In this document: piece after piece, positions 22,787-30,498 of the stretch
How the letters are laid out: every line of letters begins with the position of its first letter
Numbering within the stretch: the first letter of the stretch is position 1
Source of the DNA: an uncultured Bacteroidota bacterium
Lineage (GTDB): Bacteria > Bacteroidota > Bacteroidia > Flavobacteriales > Flavobacteriaceae
Direction: 5' to 3'
Length of the DNA stretch: 64,000 bases
Assembly: GCA_913060705.1 (NCBI GenBank)
Contig: CAJXTX010000001.1
Span: 186,001 to 250,000, forward strand
Made by a program: the position numbers and the translations under genes
Notes under the pieces: generated by a model
Database searches by the model: none
What the model was told of the DNA's origin: nothing
The model's input: only the letters and a program-made list of their open reading frames with translations

Positions 22787-24556
22787 ATGACTTCTGTAAC
22801 ACGCTTATTTGATTTCGCGTACGATCAATTGCAACGCGATCCGCTCTCAAAGGCCTTTAACACCAAGAAGGATGGAAATTGGGTCTCGACCAGCTCTGCT
22901 GAATTCATAGAGCAAGCCGAATCCGTCAGTAAAGCATTGATTGATCTCGGTGTGCAAGCAAACGATAAAATTGCACTGATCTCTATGACCAATCGCACCG
23001 AGTGGAGCGTTCTAGACCTGGCAGTGTTACAGATTGGTGCCCAAACCGTTCCCATTTACCCGACGATTTCCCAAGAAGACTACGCCTACATTCTCAATCA
23101 TAGCGAAGCAAAGTATTGTTTTGTATCCTGTGATGAGATTTTAGAAAAGGTGCTCGCTGTTAATAGCGAATTAAAACACTTAAAAGAAATATACAGTTTC
23201 GACAAATTGAAACGCGCCAAACATTGGACCGAACTGCGAGATAAAGGGCAGCACCTCAACCACAGTGACGAACTAGAAGCTCGTAAAAAGGCAGTTCAAC
23301 CCACAGATCTCGCTACCCTCATCTATACTTCTGGTACTACCGGTAAGCCCAAAGGCGTTATGCTATCGCATGAAAACATTGTGACCAACGTGCTTTCTTC
23401 ACGAGAACGCGTTCCCTTTGAATCAGGCGCTGTGGCTTTGAGCTTTTTACCGATGTGTCACATCTTCGAACGCATGATCGTTTACCTCTACCAATACTGT
23501 GGTGTGAGCATTTATTACGGAGAAGGCTTAGATAAAATCAGCGATAACATCAAAGAGATCAAACCGAGTGTGATGACCGTTGTTCCTCGCCTACTCGAAA
23601 AGGTCTACGATAAGATCATCGCGAAAGGAAAAGAACTCACGGGTCTCAAAAAATCATTGTTTTTTTGGGCGGTAGATTTGGGACATGCTTTCGAACCCTA
23701 TGACCGCGGACTCGTCTATAATTTGAAACTCGCCATTGCGCGTAAACTCATCTTCTCGAAATGGCAAGAGGCGCTTGGCGGTAATCTTGAGCTCATGGTC
23801 TCAGGAAGTGCTGCGCTTCAACCCCGCTTAACACGCGTATTTGGGGCGGCCGGAATTCCCGTTATGGAAGGATACGGACTTACCGAAACATCTCCGGTGA
23901 TCACGGTAAACGATCAACGCAACAGAGGATGGCGCGTAGGTTCTGTCGGAAAGGTTATTTCTGGCGTTGAGATTAAGATCGCTTCAGACGGAGAAATTTT
24001 ATGTAAAGGGCCGAACGTAATGCAAGGCTATTACAAAGACGAAGAAAAGTCGTCTGAAGTATTAAAAGACGGATACTTTCACACCGGTGACATCGGAGAA
24101 ATTGATTCCGATGGATTCTTGAGAATCACAGATCGGAAAAAAGAGATGTTCAAGACCTCGGGCGGTAAGTATGTAGCTCCTCAATTGCTCGAAAATCGCT
24201 GCAAGCAATCCCTATTTATTGAACAAATCATGGTGGTCGGAGAAGGTCAAAAGATGCCCGCCGCACTCATTCAGCTCAACTTCGAATTTATTGAAGAGTG
24301 GGCTAGCAAAAAGGGAATTGCATTACCTCAAAATCGCGCTGATTACGGTAGTGACGAAGCGGTCATTACACGAATTGGCAAAGAGATTGAAGAAGCAAAT
24401 AGCGATTTTGCCCAATGGGAAAAGATCAAAGACTTTAGAATTACCCCAGATGCATGGTCTATTGAGGGCGGACACCTCACCCCTACAATGAAGCTCAAGC
24501 GCAAAGAGGTACGGGGATTGTACAAAGACCTTTACGATTCTATATACGCCTCTTAA
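22787..24556 (+). CDS. Long-chain fatty acid-CoA ligase (AMP-forming)
   Basis: A 589-residue acyl-adenylate-forming enzyme that activates fatty acids to acyl-CoA. The AMP/ATP motif LIYTSGTTGKPKGVMLSH lies near residues 179-196, followed by GYGLTETSP and the hinge/adenylate motif YFHTGDIGEIDSDGFLRITDRKKEMFKTSGGKYVAPQ (spread over about 30 residues). The C-terminal lysine region is TPTMKLKRKEV. Length and motifs fit bacterial eukaryote-type long-chain ligases. It is directly upstream of marR and the beta-oxidation genes, 73 bp before marR, and probably feeds that pathway. Confidence 0.9.
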   Translation: MTSVTRLFDFAYDQLQRDPLSKAFNTKKDGNWVSTSSAEFIEQAESVSKALIDLGVQANDKIALISMTNRTEWSVLDLAVLQIGAQTVPIYPTISQEDYAYILNHSEAKYCFVSCDEILEKVLAVNSELKHLKEIYSFDKLKRAKHWTELRDKGQHLNHSDELEARKKAVQPTDLATLIYTSGTTGKPKGVMLSHENIVTNVLSSRERVPFESGAVALSFLPMCHIFERMIVYLYQYCGVSIYYGEGLDKISDNIKEIKPSVMTVVPRLLEKVYDKIIAKGKELTGLKKSLFFWAVDLGHAFEPYDRGLVYNLKLAIARKLIFSKWQEALGGNLELMVSGSAALQPRLTRVFGAAGIPVMEGYGLTETSPVITVNDQRNRGWRVGSVGKVISGVEIKIASDGEILCKGPNVMQGYYKDEEKSSEVLKDGYFHTGDIGEIDSDGFLRITDRKKEMFKTSGGKYVAPQLLENRCKQSLFIEQIMVVGEGQKMPAALIQLNFEFIEEWASKKGIALPQNRADYGSDEAVITRIGKEIEEANSDFAQWEKIKDFRITPDAWSIEGGHLTPTMKLKRKEVRGLYKDLYDSIYAS

Positions 24557-24581: not shown

Positions 24582-24615
24582 ACTCAATTTATTATGCATG
24601 CATAATAAATTGAGT
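24582..24615. promoter_or_regulatory. Perfect 34-bp palindrome at the marR promoter, likely operator
   Basis: The left half ACTCAATTTATTATGCA (24582-24598) is followed without a spacer by its exact reverse complement (24599-24615). A near-consensus -7 element, TATCTTTA (24615-24622), begins at the last base of the palindrome, and the -33 zone lies within it. A bound dimer would therefore block transcription of marR and the fad genes. It ends 14 bases before the marR ATG. Assigning MarR as the ligand is inference from location. Confidence 0.7.
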
Positions 24616-24629
24616 ATCTTTATGGGGTC

Positions 24630-25076
24630 ATGTCTTCAAAGAAACCCCTTATAGATCATTCACTTAGAGCCACTTGGCAGAGTGTGTCGCGCATGTATAC
24701 TGAAATTGCCAAGCAGTACGGTATTACGATGGCGCTAGGATTGACCTTACTCAATATCGATCCTAAGAACGGGACTGCTTCCACTGCTCTTGGTCCTATA
24801 ATGGGTATGGAACCCACTTCGCTTTCCCGTCTATTAAACTCGCTAGAAGATCTGAAGCTTATTGAACGAAAACCTAACCCGCACGACGGTAGAGGTGTTA
24901 TCATTCATATTACAAAGGACGGTCTTGATAAAAGGGATCTCATTAAAAAACATGTCTATGCCTTTAATCAAGGCGTAGAGAAACAATTGAGCCCTAGAGA
25001 CCTTGAAGGGTTTTACGCTACCATCGAAGCGCTTAATCAACAAACTCAGACAAACGAATCGATTAACGTCATATGA
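24630..25076 (+). CDS. MarR family transcriptional regulator
   Basis: A 148-residue winged-helix repressor-type protein. The DNA-binding core spans about residues 35-105: ALGPIMGMEPTSLSRLLNSLEDLKLIERKPNPHDGRGVIIHIT, with the recognition helix TSLSRLLNSLEDL and the wing DGRGVIIH. Flanking helices form the dimer interface. It is the first gene after a perfect palindrome that overlaps its promoter and overlaps the FadN-like gene by 4 bp (ATGA). It is thus probably an autoregulated repressor of the fatty-acid degradation operon that responds to acyl-CoA or fatty acid; ligand and target are inferred. Confidence 0.88.
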   Translation: MSSKKPLIDHSLRATWQSVSRMYTEIAKQYGITMALGLTLLNIDPKNGTASTALGPIMGMEPTSLSRLLNSLEDLKLIERKPNPHDGRGVIIHITKDGLDKRDLIKKHVYAFNQGVEKQLSPRDLEGFYATIEALNQQTQTNESINVI

Positions 25077-27472
25077 AAAAGAGAATCACAAAAGTGGCCG
25101 TCATCGGCTCTGGAATCATGGGTAGCGGAATTGCTTCTCATCTTGCAGGAATAGGACTAGAAGTTCTGCTTTTAGATATCGCGCCGAAGGAGCTTCTTCC
25201 TGAAGAAGAAGGGCTTTCATTAGAGCATCCGAAAGTAAAAAACAGGATCGTAAATCAAGCATTGAGCAAATCGCTCAAGTCTAAGCCCTCTCCTATTTAT
25301 CATCAGGGCTTCGCCTCTCGTATTCAAACGGGAAACCTAGACGATGACTTGCATAAAATCAAAAGTGTAGACTGGATCATTGAGGTCGTTGTTGAGCGCT
25401 TGGACATCAAAAAACAGGTGTTCGAGGCTATTGAAAAGCACAGAACGCCCGGAACCTTGATCAGCTCAAATACCTCAGGAATCCCTATCGGGCTTATGTC
25501 TGAGGGAAGAAGTGATGATTTTCAACAGTATTTCTGTGGAACGCATTTTTTCAATCCTGCTCGTTATCTCAGATTGCTAGAAATTATTCCTGGGCCCAAA
25601 ACCAAACCAGAGGTACTTTCTTTCTTTGAAGACTTTGGAACACGCTTCTTAGGAAAACGTGTTGTAGTCGCGCAAGATACCCCCGCCTTTATCGGAAACC
25701 GCATCGGAATTTTCAGTATCCAAAGCTTGTTTCACAGCGTCAACACCCTAGGCCTTACCGTAGAAGAGGTAGATAAGCTTACCGGACCGGTGATCGGACG
25801 TCCTAAATCAGCCACCTTCAGAACCGTAGATGTCGTAGGATTAGATACGCTTGTCCATGTTGCCAATGGAATTAAAGAGCACTGCCCACAAGACGAGCGC
25901 CATGAACTATTTAGCCTGCCATCCTTTGTCACAGACATGATGAGCAAAAACAGGTTAGGAGCTAAAACCGGAGAAGGTTTTTATAAAAAGACCAAAAAAC
26001 CAGACGGGTCTTCAGAAATCTTAACCCTTGACCTGAATACATTAGCGTATCGCCCCCAACAAAAGGCAAAATTTGAAACACTAGAGAAAACGAAAAGTAT
26101 TAGCGAAGTTGAAGATCGGTTTAGCGTACTCTGCGACGGCACCGACAAGGCCGGAGAATTTTACAGATCTGTATTTGGGGATCTTTTCGCTTATGTAGCT
26201 CAGCGCGTAGGAGAAATTACAGATCGCATATATAAAATTGACGACGCCATGAAGGCAGGGTTTGGCTGGCAGCACGGACCTTTTGAAATATGGACCGCTC
26301 TTGGTTTAGAAAAAGGGATTGAATTGGCTAAAGCAAAAGGCCATGAATTGCCCGATTGGGTAACAGCCCTACATCAAAACGGTGCGACAGGCTTTTACGC
26401 TCTTGATCAACAACATACGACCTATTACAATCAAGACACTAAGACTTTTGAGCGTATCCCCGGAAGAGATGCCTTTATCATTCTTGATAACACGCGTAAA
26501 ACCAACAGTGTCTACAAAAACCCAGATTTCGAATTGTTAGATCTCGGAGATGGGATTGTTTGTGCGGAGTTCCGCTCGAAGATGAATACCATTGGTGCCG
26601 AAGTACTCACTGGGCTTAACAAGGCCGTAGAGATAGCCGAGAATCAATTCGAAGGACTCGTCGTAGGTAATCAAGGTGCGAACTTCTCAGTGGGCGCCAA
26701 TCTAGGAATGATTTTCATGCTCGCTGTAGAGCAAGAATACGACGAGCTCCACATGGCCATCAAATATTTCCAAGACACCATGATGCGCATGCGTTACAGC
26801 AAGATACCGGTGATAGCAGCCCCTCATGGAATGACCCTTGGAGGCGGATGTGAACTGAGCTTGCACGCAGATCGTGTTGTTGCTGCCGCGGAGACCTACA
26901 TCGGACTTGTAGAATTCGGAGTGGGTGTTATTCCTGGAGGAGGAGGTAGCAAAGAAATGGCAGTTCGGGCGGCAGACACCTTTAAAAAAGGAGACCTCGA
27001 GTTGAATGCACTTAGAGAATATTTCTTAACCATTGCCATGGCCAAGGTGTCCACCTCAGCCTATGAGGCTTACGACTTAGGAATTCTTCAAAAAGGCAAA
27101 GACATTGTAGTGAACAATAGTGACCAACAATTAGCCACAGCAAAGGCCTATGCCCGCATCATGGCCGACCAAGGCTACACACAACCTATCCAGAAAACAG
27201 ACATCAAAGTCTTGGGTAGACAAGCATTAGGTGCCTTTTTGGTCGGAACAGACAGTATGGTCGCCGGAAACTATATTTCTGAATACGACAGAAAAATGGC
27301 CGACAAATTGGCCTATGTGATGTCAGGAGGAGATCTATCCGCGTCTACAACTGTTAGTGAACAATACCTCCTTGACATAGAACGTGAAGCGTTCTTGTCT
27401 TTATGTGGAGAACGAAAAACGCTTGAACGCATTCAGCATATGCTTAAAACAGGTAAACCCTTAAGAAATTAA
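25073..27472 (+). CDS. fadN: 3-Hydroxyacyl-CoA dehydrogenase/enoyl-CoA hydratase fusion (FadN-like)
   Basis: A 799-residue bifunctional beta-oxidation enzyme. The N-terminal NAD-binding dehydrogenase (KVAVIGSGIMGSGIASHLAG; SSNTSGIPI; CGTHFFNPARYLRLLEIIP) is followed by its C-terminal dehydrogenase domain. The crotonase/enoyl-CoA hydratase domain comes last (about residues 510-690; VVGNQGANFSVGANLG and MTLGGGCELSLHADRVVAA). This domain order is the reverse of E. coli FadB and matches the Bacillus FadN type. It is followed by a thiolase and an acyl-CoA dehydrogenase, the same order as the Bacillus fadNAE operon. Coupled to marR by a 4-bp overlap. Confidence 0.9.
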   Translation: MKKRITKVAVIGSGIMGSGIASHLAGIGLEVLLLDIAPKELLPEEEGLSLEHPKVKNRIVNQALSKSLKSKPSPIYHQGFASRIQTGNLDDDLHKIKSVDWIIEVVVERLDIKKQVFEAIEKHRTPGTLISSNTSGIPIGLMSEGRSDDFQQYFCGTHFFNPARYLRLLEIIPGPKTKPEVLSFFEDFGTRFLGKRVVVAQDTPAFIGNRIGIFSIQSLFHSVNTLGLTVEEVDKLTGPVIGRPKSATFRTVDVVGLDTLVHVANGIKEHCPQDERHELFSLPSFVTDMMSKNRLGAKTGEGFYKKTKKPDGSSEILTLDLNTLAYRPQQKAKFETLEKTKSISEVEDRFSVLCDGTDKAGEFYRSVFGDLFAYVAQRVGEITDRIYKIDDAMKAGFGWQHGPFEIWTALGLEKGIELAKAKGHELPDWVTALHQNGATGFYALDQQHTTYYNQDTKTFERIPGRDAFIILDNTRKTNSVYKNPDFELLDLGDGIVCAEFRSKMNTIGAEVLTGLNKAVEIAENQFEGLVVGNQGANFSVGANLGMIFMLAVEQEYDELHMAIKYFQDTMMRMRYSKIPVIAAPHGMTLGGGCELSLHADRVVAAAETYIGLVEFGVGVIPGGGGSKEMAVRAADTFKKGDLELNALREYFLTIAMAKVSTSAYEAYDLGILQKGKDIVVNNSDQQLATAKAYARIMADQGYTQPIQKTDIKVLGRQALGAFLVGTDSMVAGNYISEYDRKMADKLAYVMSGGDLSASTTVSEQYLLDIEREAFLSLCGERKTLERIQHMLKTGKPLRN

Positions 27473-27476
27473 TGCA

Positions 27477-28667
27477 ATGAAAACAGCATATATAGTTAAA
27501 GCCTACAGAACAGCGGTCGGAAAAGCCCCAAGAGGATTGTTCCGATTTAAAAGACCTGATGAACTCGCTGCAGAAACCATGCGTCATATGCTCGATCAAG
27601 TTCCACAACTCGATAAGAAGCGTATAGATGATGTCATTCTTGGAAGTGCGATGCCTGAGGCAGAGCAAGGTTTAAACGTGGCCCGCCTAGTGGCTTTAAT
27701 GGGGTCTGATACAGAAAGTATTGCAGGAGTTACTGTCAATCGTTACTGTGCATCGGGTTTAGAAACCATTGCACTCGCCACGGCTAAAATCCAATCGGGT
27801 ATGGCAGATTGCATTATTGCAGGCGGAATGGAGAGCATGAGCTACATCCCCATGGGAGGATACAAGCCCGCTCCTGATTATAACAGCGCTATCACAGGGC
27901 ATTCTGATTATTATTGGAATATGGGACTCACTGCCGAAGAGGTGGCTAAACAATACAAGGTGAATCGCGAAGATCAAGATCAATTTGCCTTCGAGTCACA
28001 TCAAAAGGCATTAGCCGCACTAGCTGAAAACAGATTTAAGGATCAGATTGTACCGATTACAGTTAACGAGATTTATCTTGATAGCAACCAGAAACGCGCA
28101 GAACGCTCTTATGTGGTCGATACCGATGAAGGTCCCCGTGCTGACACGAGTCTTGAAAAGCTTGGAAAATTACGTCCTGTGTTCGCCGATGGAGGAACGG
28201 TTACTGCTGGTAATGCCTCTCAAATGAGTGACGGCGCAGCCTTTACCCTAGTGATGAGCGAAGAGATGGTTAAAGAACTCCAACTCGAGCCGATTGCGCG
28301 TTTGGTAAGCTATGCCGCTACCGGTGTCCCACCACGAATCATGGGGATCGGACCTGTTGAGGCGATTCCAAAGGCCTTGAAAATGGCACACTTGAAAAAA
28401 GAGGATGTACTCATTACTGAACTCAATGAGGCATTTGCTGCCCAATCACTGGCCGTTATCCGTGAACTTGATTTAGATCCTTCAACGGTAAATGTCAACG
28501 GAGGAGCGATAGCCCTTGGCCACCCCTTGGGTTGCACCGGAACTAAATTGAGCGTACAGCTCTTTGATGAAATGCGTCAACGCAGTTTGAAAGGCAAACA
28601 CGGAATGGTTACGATGTGCGTCGGAACCGGTCAAGGCGCAGCAGGAATATTTGAATTTATTGCTTAA
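27477..28667 (+). CDS. fadA: Acetyl-CoA acyltransferase (3-ketoacyl-CoA thiolase)
   Basis: A 396-residue thiolase that cleaves 3-ketoacyl-CoA with CoA to release acetyl-CoA, the last step of each beta-oxidation round. The nucleophile is Cys91 in [13 protein letters not shown]. The second site is [14 protein letters not shown] with His349, and the acid/base cysteine is Cys381 in [10 protein letters not shown]. All three active-site positions are intact and the length is normal. It sits 4 bases after the FadN-like gene, with which it would work as a complex or metabolic pair. Confidence 0.94.
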
Positions 28668-28677
28668 ACCTACAGTT

Positions 28678-30498
28678 ATGGAAGAGAAAACAGCAACTAC
28701 AACACACATTAGAGGCGGACAGTTTATTGTCAAAACCCCTACTCCAGAAGCGATCTTCACCCTAGAAGATCTCTCTGAGGACCAAAAAATGATGCGCGAA
28801 AGCACCAAAGAATTTGCTGAACGTGAGCTATGGGCGCACTGGGAACGCTTTGAGAAAAAGGATTACGAATACACCAAGCAATGCATGCAAAAAGCGGGTG
28901 AGCTTGGCCTATTGAGTATAGCAGTACCAGAAGCATACGGAGGTATGGGAATGGGATTCGTTTCAACCATGCTCGTTTGCGATTACATCTCTGGTGTCAC
29001 CGGTTCGTTTAGCACCGCATTCGGAGCACATACAGGCATCGGAACCATGCCGATCACCCTCTACGGAACAGAAGAGCAAAAACAAAAGTATGTTCCTAAA
29101 CTCGCCAGTGGTGAATGGTTTGGCTCGTATTGCCTTACAGAGCCTGGTGCCGGATCTGACGCCAACTCAGGAAAGACAAAAGCGGTACTCTCTGAAGACA
29201 AGACGCATTATCTGATTACCGGTCAGAAAATGTGGATCTCTAATGCCGGCTTTGCCGATCTTTTTATCGTTTTCGCTCGTATTGAGGACGATAAATACAT
29301 TACCGGTTTTATCGTTGAGAACGATCCAAACAACGGTATCAGTTACGGAGAAGAAGAAAAGAAACTAGGTATCCACTCCTCTTCTACCCGTCAAGTCTTT
29401 TTTAACGAGACCAAGGTACCCGTTGAGAATATGTTATCAGAGCGTGGTAACGGATTCAAGATTGCAATGAACGCCCTCAATGTAGGTCGTATCAAGCTTG
29501 CCGCAGCATGCTTAGATGCAGAAAGACGTGTAATTCGAGAGGCGACCAAATACGCAAAAGAACGCGTGCAGTTTAAAACTCCAATCGCCAATTTTGGAGC
29601 GATCAAAGAAAAACTCGCCTTAATGGCCACGCAATGTTACGTCGACGAATCGGCCTGTTACCGTGCCGCAAGCGATATCGAAAACAGCATCAACGCAAGA
29701 CTCGCGAAGGGTGAATCGCATCAAGATGCTGAGCTAAAAGGGGTTGAAGAATTTGCGATCGAGTGCTCGATCTTAAAGGTCATTGTGTCTGAACATATAC
29801 AAGACTGTAGCGACCAAGGGTTGCAGATTTACGGAGGAATGGGATTCAGTGCAGATGCACCCATGGAATCTGCATGGAGAGACGCTAGAATCTCTAGAAT
29901 TTATGAAGGAACCAATGAGATCAACCGAATGCTTTCTGTAGGTATGTTGATTAAGAAAGCCATGAAGGGACACGTTGACCTATTGGGCCCTGCCTATGCC
30001 GTGAAAGAAGAACTTATGGGCATTCCTGATTTTGAAGTGCCCGATTTTAGTGCGCCATTGAGCCAAGAAGTTGACCTTGTAAAAAGACTAAAGAAGGTGT
30101 TTCTGATGGTGGCTGGAGCTGCAGTTGAGAAATTTGGAACCGAGCTAGAATCGCATCAAATGCTACTCATGGCAGCAGCGGATATTTTGATTGAAATCTA
30201 TATGGCAGAGTCTGCAATTTACCGTACTCTGAAAAACATCGACCGTTATGGAGCTGATGCTCAAAAAGTGCAAATCGCTATGACTGAGCTCTATGTCTTT
30301 AATGCTGTAGAAACCATTACCACTAAGGCAAAAGAAGGTATTGCTTCGATTGCTGAAGGAGACGAACAAAAAGGTATGCTCATGGGGCTCAAACGTTTCA
30401 CCAAATACCATCAATTACCCAATATTGGTGAACTTAAAGAGGTGATTTCAGAGGCCATCAAAGAAAAAGATGGATACACCTTTGACGCCATCGCCTAA
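28678..30498 (+). CDS. fadE: Acyl-CoA dehydrogenase (FadE-like)
   Basis: A 606-residue FAD-dependent acyl-CoA dehydrogenase, longer than the 380-residue short forms because of a C-terminal helical extension (about residues 430-606), as in Bacillus FadE. Motifs are YCLTEPGAGSD, KMWISNAGFADLF, and the catalytic glutamate Glu410 in IYEGTNEI. It makes the trans-2-enoyl-CoA used by the FadN-like enzyme. The start at 28678 (MEEKTATT) is chosen because it lies after the thiolase stop; a Met 9 codons earlier overlaps the thiolase end. A terminator follows, closing the operon. Confidence 0.92.
   Translation: MEEKTATTTHIRGGQFIVKTPTPEAIFTLEDLSEDQKMMRESTKEFAERELWAHWERFEKKDYEYTKQCMQKAGELGLLSIAVPEAYGGMGMGFVSTMLVCDYISGVTGSFSTAFGAHTGIGTMPITLYGTEEQKQKYVPKLASGEWFGSYCLTEPGAGSDANSGKTKAVLSEDKTHYLITGQKMWISNAGFADLFIVFARIEDDKYITGFIVENDPNNGISYGEEEKKLGIHSSSTRQVFFNETKVPVENMLSERGNGFKIAMNALNVGRIKLAAACLDAERRVIREATKYAKERVQFKTPIANFGAIKEKLALMATQCYVDESACYRAASDIENSINARLAKGESHQDAELKGVEEFAIECSILKVIVSEHIQDCSDQGLQIYGGMGFSADAPMESAWRDARISRIYEGTNEINRMLSVGMLIKKAMKGHVDLLGPAYAVKEELMGIPDFEVPDFSAPLSQEVDLVKRLKKVFLMVAGAAVEKFGTELESHQMLLMAAADILIEIYMAESAIYRTLKNIDRYGADAQKVQIAMTELYVFNAVETITTKAKEGIASIAEGDEQKGMLMGLKRFTKYHQLPNIGELKEVISEAIKEKDGYTFDAIA

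Follow-up and report, generated by a model that had tools for sequence, protein, structure and literature searches.

In our reading, a palindrome lying ahead of a fatty acid degradation operon in an uncultured Flavobacteriaceae bacterium is genuine and forms a DNA docking site that has been widely conserved. Its binder is most likely the neighbouring MarR-family protein, which probably serves as the on-off switch of fatty acid breakdown throughout a broad group of Bacteroidota. More specifically, the palindrome very likely constitutes the operator of this adjacent MarR, through which the protein would repress its own gene and the fadNAE genes that follow.

The window, namely the whole 64-kb stretch of DNA analysed, lies on the first contig of a 1.59-Mb assembly of 66 contigs that is 89.85% complete. 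As announced by the sequence-only reading, a perfect 34-bp palindrome made of two 17-base halves precedes marR-fadN-fadA-fadE: the unstranded segment 24582–24615, read directly, consists of ACTCAATTTATTATGCA followed by its own exact reverse complement. No other perfect even palindrome of the window has an arm longer than 7 bases and, among 200 Markov-simulated sequences of 64 kb, the longest arm measured 6 to 11 bases in 199 and 15 in one, which rules out a chance palindrome. The genes downstream are all encoded on the forward strand. They specify the MarR-family regulator (24630–25076; 148 aa, recognition helix at about residues 62–74; Pfam MarR_2 and MarR above cut-off), a fadN-type 3-hydroxyacyl-CoA dehydrogenase/enoyl-CoA hydratase (25073–27472; Pfam 3HCDH_N, 3HCDH and ECH_1 above cut-off), the thiolase FadA, an acetyl-CoA C-acyltransferase (27477–28667; TIGR01930 above cut-off), and the acyl-CoA dehydrogenase FadE (28678–30498; NF058590 FadE above cut-off), whose start is an in-frame ATG chosen within an open reading frame listed from 28651. 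Upstream, on the same strand, an AMP-forming acyl-CoA ligase gene (22787–24556; Pfam AMP-binding) has no site of its own. This absence had been claimed from the start and is confirmed by two scans: a half-site search across the window with up to three mismatches matched the two arms only, and the 300 bp before the ligase gene hold no operator copy, the best match to the operator core having four mismatches. Searched with two mismatches in the genome of origin, ACTCAATNNATTATG was about as frequent as its control (23+20 against 19+19 matches).

The conservation of the site was assessed in a family sample of 120 genomes searched with the MarR protein, 114 of which gave one match each at E values up to 1e-8. 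The upstream DNA of all 114 genes (30 loci and 84 stretches) was taken and oriented to the gene strand. With up to two mismatches, every one of the 114 genomes has the core TATGCATGCATA, located at 24593–24604 in the window, in the 250 bp that precede marR (no mismatch in 62, one in 41, two in 11), against a mean of 1.8 of 114 for shuffled upstream sequences. The conservation profile of these genomes reaches about 12 bases on either side of the palindrome centre and delimits an unstranded 24-bp candidate operator, ATTTATTATGCATGCATAATAAAT, at 24587–24610. On both sides, none of positions 2 to 6 departs from the consensus in more than one genome. Variation at positions -1 and +1 almost always keeps a purine on the left and a pyrimidine on the right; position 7 varies too, mainly between T and C on the left and between A and G on the right, and the outermost flanks are T-rich on the right and A-rich but weakly conserved on the left. 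A strict 24-mer site with up to three mismatches is missing from 24 of the 114 MarR-positive genomes, yet the core occurs in all of them.

The geometry of the promoter is equally constrained. A -7-like element had been said to start at the last base of the palindrome, and TATCTTTA indeed occupies positions 24615–24622 of the forward strand, beginning 16 bp after the palindrome centre. Throughout the 114 family genomes, the distance from the centre to the start of TAnnTTTG is 17 bp in 68 and 18 bp in 31; one genome has it at 14 bp, another at 16 bp, and 13, window included, contain no exact TAnnTTTG in range. A palindromic site is therefore found at the promoter of the MarR gene itself, with the core in 114 of 114 genomes and the usual TAnnTTTG spacing in 99. 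A Flavobacterium johnsoniae study places the first T of TAnnTTTG at -12 and describes the -33 motif as much less evident (PMC6847099). Following this numbering, the operator would span roughly -41 to -18, and the transcription start of marR is predicted at about 24627, leaving a leader of about 3 nt before the ATG. Since TAnnTTTG lies 17–18 bp after the centre in 99 of the 114 genomes, the operator would cover the -33 region, as expected for a repressor site. The start codon stands 29–31 bp after the operator centre in 13 of the 114 genomes, window included, as against 42–45 bp in 61.

The product of marR possesses a MarR winged-helix domain, as evidenced by PF12802 and PF01047 scores above their cut-offs, by its predicted fold and by PDB matches. 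The AlphaFold2 model, built on a 14-sequence alignment, has a mean pLDDT of 83.9 and the MarR layout, with helix 62–74 in the recognition position. Foldseek matched it to MarR-family structures, DNA-bound MepR being among the best fits: MepR 4lln (4lln_I) is the best-fitting DNA complex among the 50 matches listed, with a TM score of 0.84 by query length. Sequence identity with the solved structures among the matches listed is 14–24%. Sequence matches also include CouR (PDB 6c28, E 3.4e-7) and, weakly, PDB 6jbx (E 8.7e-5), an entry named as a fatty acid biosynthesis regulator, which we take to be FabT. For residue conservation, 2 of the 114 MarR proteins were left out as short or containing unknown residues. 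In the remaining 112, little or no variation is seen in most columns of the recognition helix and of the residues immediately preceding it, and E61, T63, S64 and R67 are invariant in 112 of 112.

Beyond marR, the site recurs at several unlinked fatty acid degradation loci, thus outlining a candidate regulon. An exact 20-mer scan of the named genomes returned at least 118 loci, and the counts that follow hold among the matches listed. The nearest genes are marR at 59 loci (including L159, whose intact marR was missed by the gene finder), etfB/pdhB at 31, other acyl-CoA-type genes at 22 and others at 6; no acyl-CoA gene was assigned at L073, L099, L108, L109, L133 or L126, the last of which shows no flanking gene. 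The 22 include two acyl-CoA dehydrogenase genes and one ligase gene. Also among the 118 loci listed, seven lie at thioesterase and/or nitronate monooxygenase genes, four at the gene of a membrane Fe-S protein, three at a KAS-III-like synthase, three at an OYE/FadH-like enzyme, and one each at a 2,4-dienoyl-CoA reductase-like SDR and an acyl-CoA carboxylase (L094). Representatives were checked by profile and the others placed by BLAST clusters (80 of the 118 loci) or N-termini, except for the L094 carboxylase, named by reading its sequence without a profile. The names 2,4-dienoyl-CoA reductase-like SDR and OYE/FadH-like are loose because both proteins fall under NCBIfam cut-offs, the former scoring 308.1 against a cut-off of 318 for 2,4-dienoyl-CoA reductase and the latter well below its best one.

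In the genome of origin, etfB and pdhB, two divergent genes, are separated by a further exact 24-bp operator (L041 1440–1610; G000:C2:90029–90052). There, the etfB product matches Pfam ETF and is followed by a gene that looks etfA-like by eye, while pdhB passes the NCBIfam cut-offs for pyruvate dehydrogenase E1 beta. On the etfB side, TAnnTTTG lies 25–28 bp from the centre in 18 of 32 such loci and elsewhere in 4, none being found in the other 10; on the pdhB side it stands 50–63 bp away in 25 of 31 loci. Because TAnnTTTG is nearer to the centre on its side, etfB is the likelier target, with weaker support than at marR, and pdhB was rejected as the main target. The operator also precedes the membrane Fe-S protein gene in L056, L080, L107 and L131. 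The L056 protein, the one tested, matches PDB 9ojn (E 1e-43), a code that occurs in a paper on Mycobacterium smegmatis EtfD, where EtfD is described as linking ETF to menaquinone (PMC13083937). This likeness to the mycobacterial protein suggests that the Fe-S protein could be an ETF-to-menaquinone link of Bacteroidota.

The presence of so many sites at genes other than marR raises the question of whether the site belongs to another widely conserved fatty acid regulator, of which marR would be merely one target, the more so as the identity of the binder is beyond the reach of sequence alone. The distribution of site and protein, with presence of the site counted per genome, makes this unlikely. 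In a phylum sample of 296 genomes, a MarR profile match at E values up to 1e-12 was obtained in 54, and the pattern TNNTATGCRYGCATANNA occurs in 51, of which 48 belong to the 54 MarR-positive genomes and three (G260, G320 and G381) to the 242 MarR-negative ones; the MarR-positive genomes without the strict pattern are G191, G263, G283, G306, G310 and G389. A reversed control pattern was found in 9 of the 296. Site and MarR are thus mostly present or absent together, with a Fisher p of 8e-45 that overstates independence because the genomes are related. Outside the family, each of the 24 MarR matches was taken together with about 2.6 kb of downstream DNA. Each of the 20 marR genes with fadN in this stretch has the core, with up to two mismatches, within 200 bp upstream, and the core is absent upstream of the 4 without fadN. 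The nearly invariant recognition helix paired with a nearly invariant operator also argues against another regulator. The four exceptions, L260, L262, L263 and L268, are distant MarR homologues away from fadN, and three of the four genomes concerned (G218, G330 and G377) carry 2, 5 and 7 sites somewhere.

Losses within the family point in the same direction. The 24-mer site, with up to three mismatches, occurs in none of the 6 genomes (of 120) without a MarR match and in 90 of the 114 with one (p 1.6e-4, again for related genomes), and the reversed control matched in none of the 120. G022 and G095 have kept fadN, preceded by other genes, with no MarR match in the genome and no core at up to two mismatches in the 1.7 kb before fadN. 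A close fadN is absent too from G023, G035 and G055, and G015 is uninformative because its contig stops at fadN. The six MarR-less genomes are 83–99% complete, so that some of these absences may be assembly gaps. Overall, the proposal that the fad-operon promoter carries an operator of the neighbouring MarR stands up to the sequence check: the core precedes marR in all 114 MarR-bearing family genomes and follows the distribution of MarR through the class.

The length of the palindrome had led to the idea of a double operator, on which two overlapping MarR dimers would sit. At 34 bp, the palindrome does exceed the usual length of one MarR site, and one genome of the 114 (L202) has three cores 14 bp apart. 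The idea nevertheless fails on the conserved stretch, which covers only about 24 bp, and we hold it to be very improbable. This genome's second site is symmetrical over exactly 24 bp, and so is the site of the nearest relative encountered, L058, whose MarR is 97% identical and which has not kept the outer 5 bp of each arm; the symmetry measures 24 bp in L076 (MarR 88% identical) and 30 bp in G064 (79%). Unbroken arms of at least 17 bases were found in 6 of the 114 genomes, window included, a count in which the 44 genomes with two non-complementary central bases score an unbroken arm of 0. The conserved operator is, as these comparisons indicate, about 24 bp and not 34, and the outer five bases of each arm are best regarded as an incidental extension favoured by the A/T richness of the flanks. 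In 8 of the 114 genomes, two or three cores stand within 250 bp of marR; seven of these genomes have two separate cores 28–30 bp apart, a spacing that suggests one MarR dimer per 24-bp palindrome. These paired cores, about three helical turns apart, belong to L027, L166, L169, L175, L184, L189 and L206.

A transcription terminator or RNA hairpin serving the upstream ligase gene, as could be imagined for a self-complementary palindrome able to form a hairpin 25 nt past the ligase stop codon, is practically excluded by the missing T-run after it and by the same sequence lying between the divergent etfB and pdhB, and the nearly fixed distance to the -7 element also speaks against it.

The reading of the palindrome as the operator of the adjacent MarR leads to a simple mechanism. 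The sequences show that the site exists, where it lies, how far it is conserved, that it co-occurs with MarR and which genes flank it; from this we infer that MarR binds it, that MarR represses and does not activate, and what its ligand is. A MarR dimer would bind the 24-bp operator, covering the -33 region and the spacer and ending just before the -7 element. The bound protein would exclude RNA polymerase, leaving marR and fadNAE repressed. The same MarR would act at the etfB-pdhB site of its own genome, where its target would be etfB, and in relatives it would act at further fatty acid genes. CouR binds an aromatic acyl-CoA; from this and from the pathway itself, our guess is that an acyl-CoA or a related product of fatty acid uptake probably releases MarR. 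Conservation, promoter placement and recurrence at acyl-CoA genes strongly support autorepression at the 24-bp site. From the operator position alone, the protein may also be an activator instead of a repressor.

Fatty acid degradation is already known to be governed by unrelated proteins in different lineages. According to one study, FadR, of the GntR family, and PsrA and FadP, of the TetR family, regulate this pathway in Proteobacteria, with non-orthologous replacement between lineages (PMC5343134). The MarR studied here would resemble them as a single regulator for beta-oxidation and accessory acyl-CoA genes, and differs in its protein family, in its occurrence in Bacteroidota and in a 24-bp palindromic operator of its own. 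Homology to FadR, PsrA or FadP was not detected: Pfam matches at E values up to 0.001 comprise MarR-type and related winged-helix models, with no GntR or TetR model, so that the protein is a predicted functional analogue and not a member of these groups. With the autoregulated MarR, MepR, SlyA, HcaR and CouR, it shares the MarR fold and a gene placed beside its own putative operator and target operon. Unlike them, it is predicted to act on genes of beta-oxidation and electron transfer, across many families of one class. Like FabT, it would be a MarR-family regulator of lipid metabolism, and whereas FabT regulates fatty acid biosynthesis according to its PDB entry, the genes beside the present sites are degradation genes.

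In the open-access PMC literature we found no description of this MarR regulator or of its operator motif, and in open-access papers no fatty acid degradation regulator described for Bacteroidota; among motif letters, the 14-mer was found in none of these papers and the 12-mer in one unrelated nematode paper. Bacteroidota are major degraders of organic matter. We consider it probable that this MarR is the general regulator of fatty acid degradation in the class Bacteroidia, where it would take the place of FadR, PsrA and FadP, and that a single ancient palindromic operator, which has changed little between Flavobacteriaceae and other families and orders of the class, ties beta-oxidation to the electron transfer flavoprotein and to a quinone link of EtfD type. 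This would add a MarR-type case to those already known in which unrelated regulators have replaced one another on the same pathway (FadR of the GntR family; PsrA and FadP of the TetR family). A defined candidate regulator, with its exact operator and a list of genes, is now available for testing in a laboratory strain such as Flavobacterium johnsoniae. Among the 80 matches listed, Mucilaginibacter (L094) and Sphingobacterium (L118) are names from outside the Flavobacteriia, and the sites of both lie before acyl-CoA genes.
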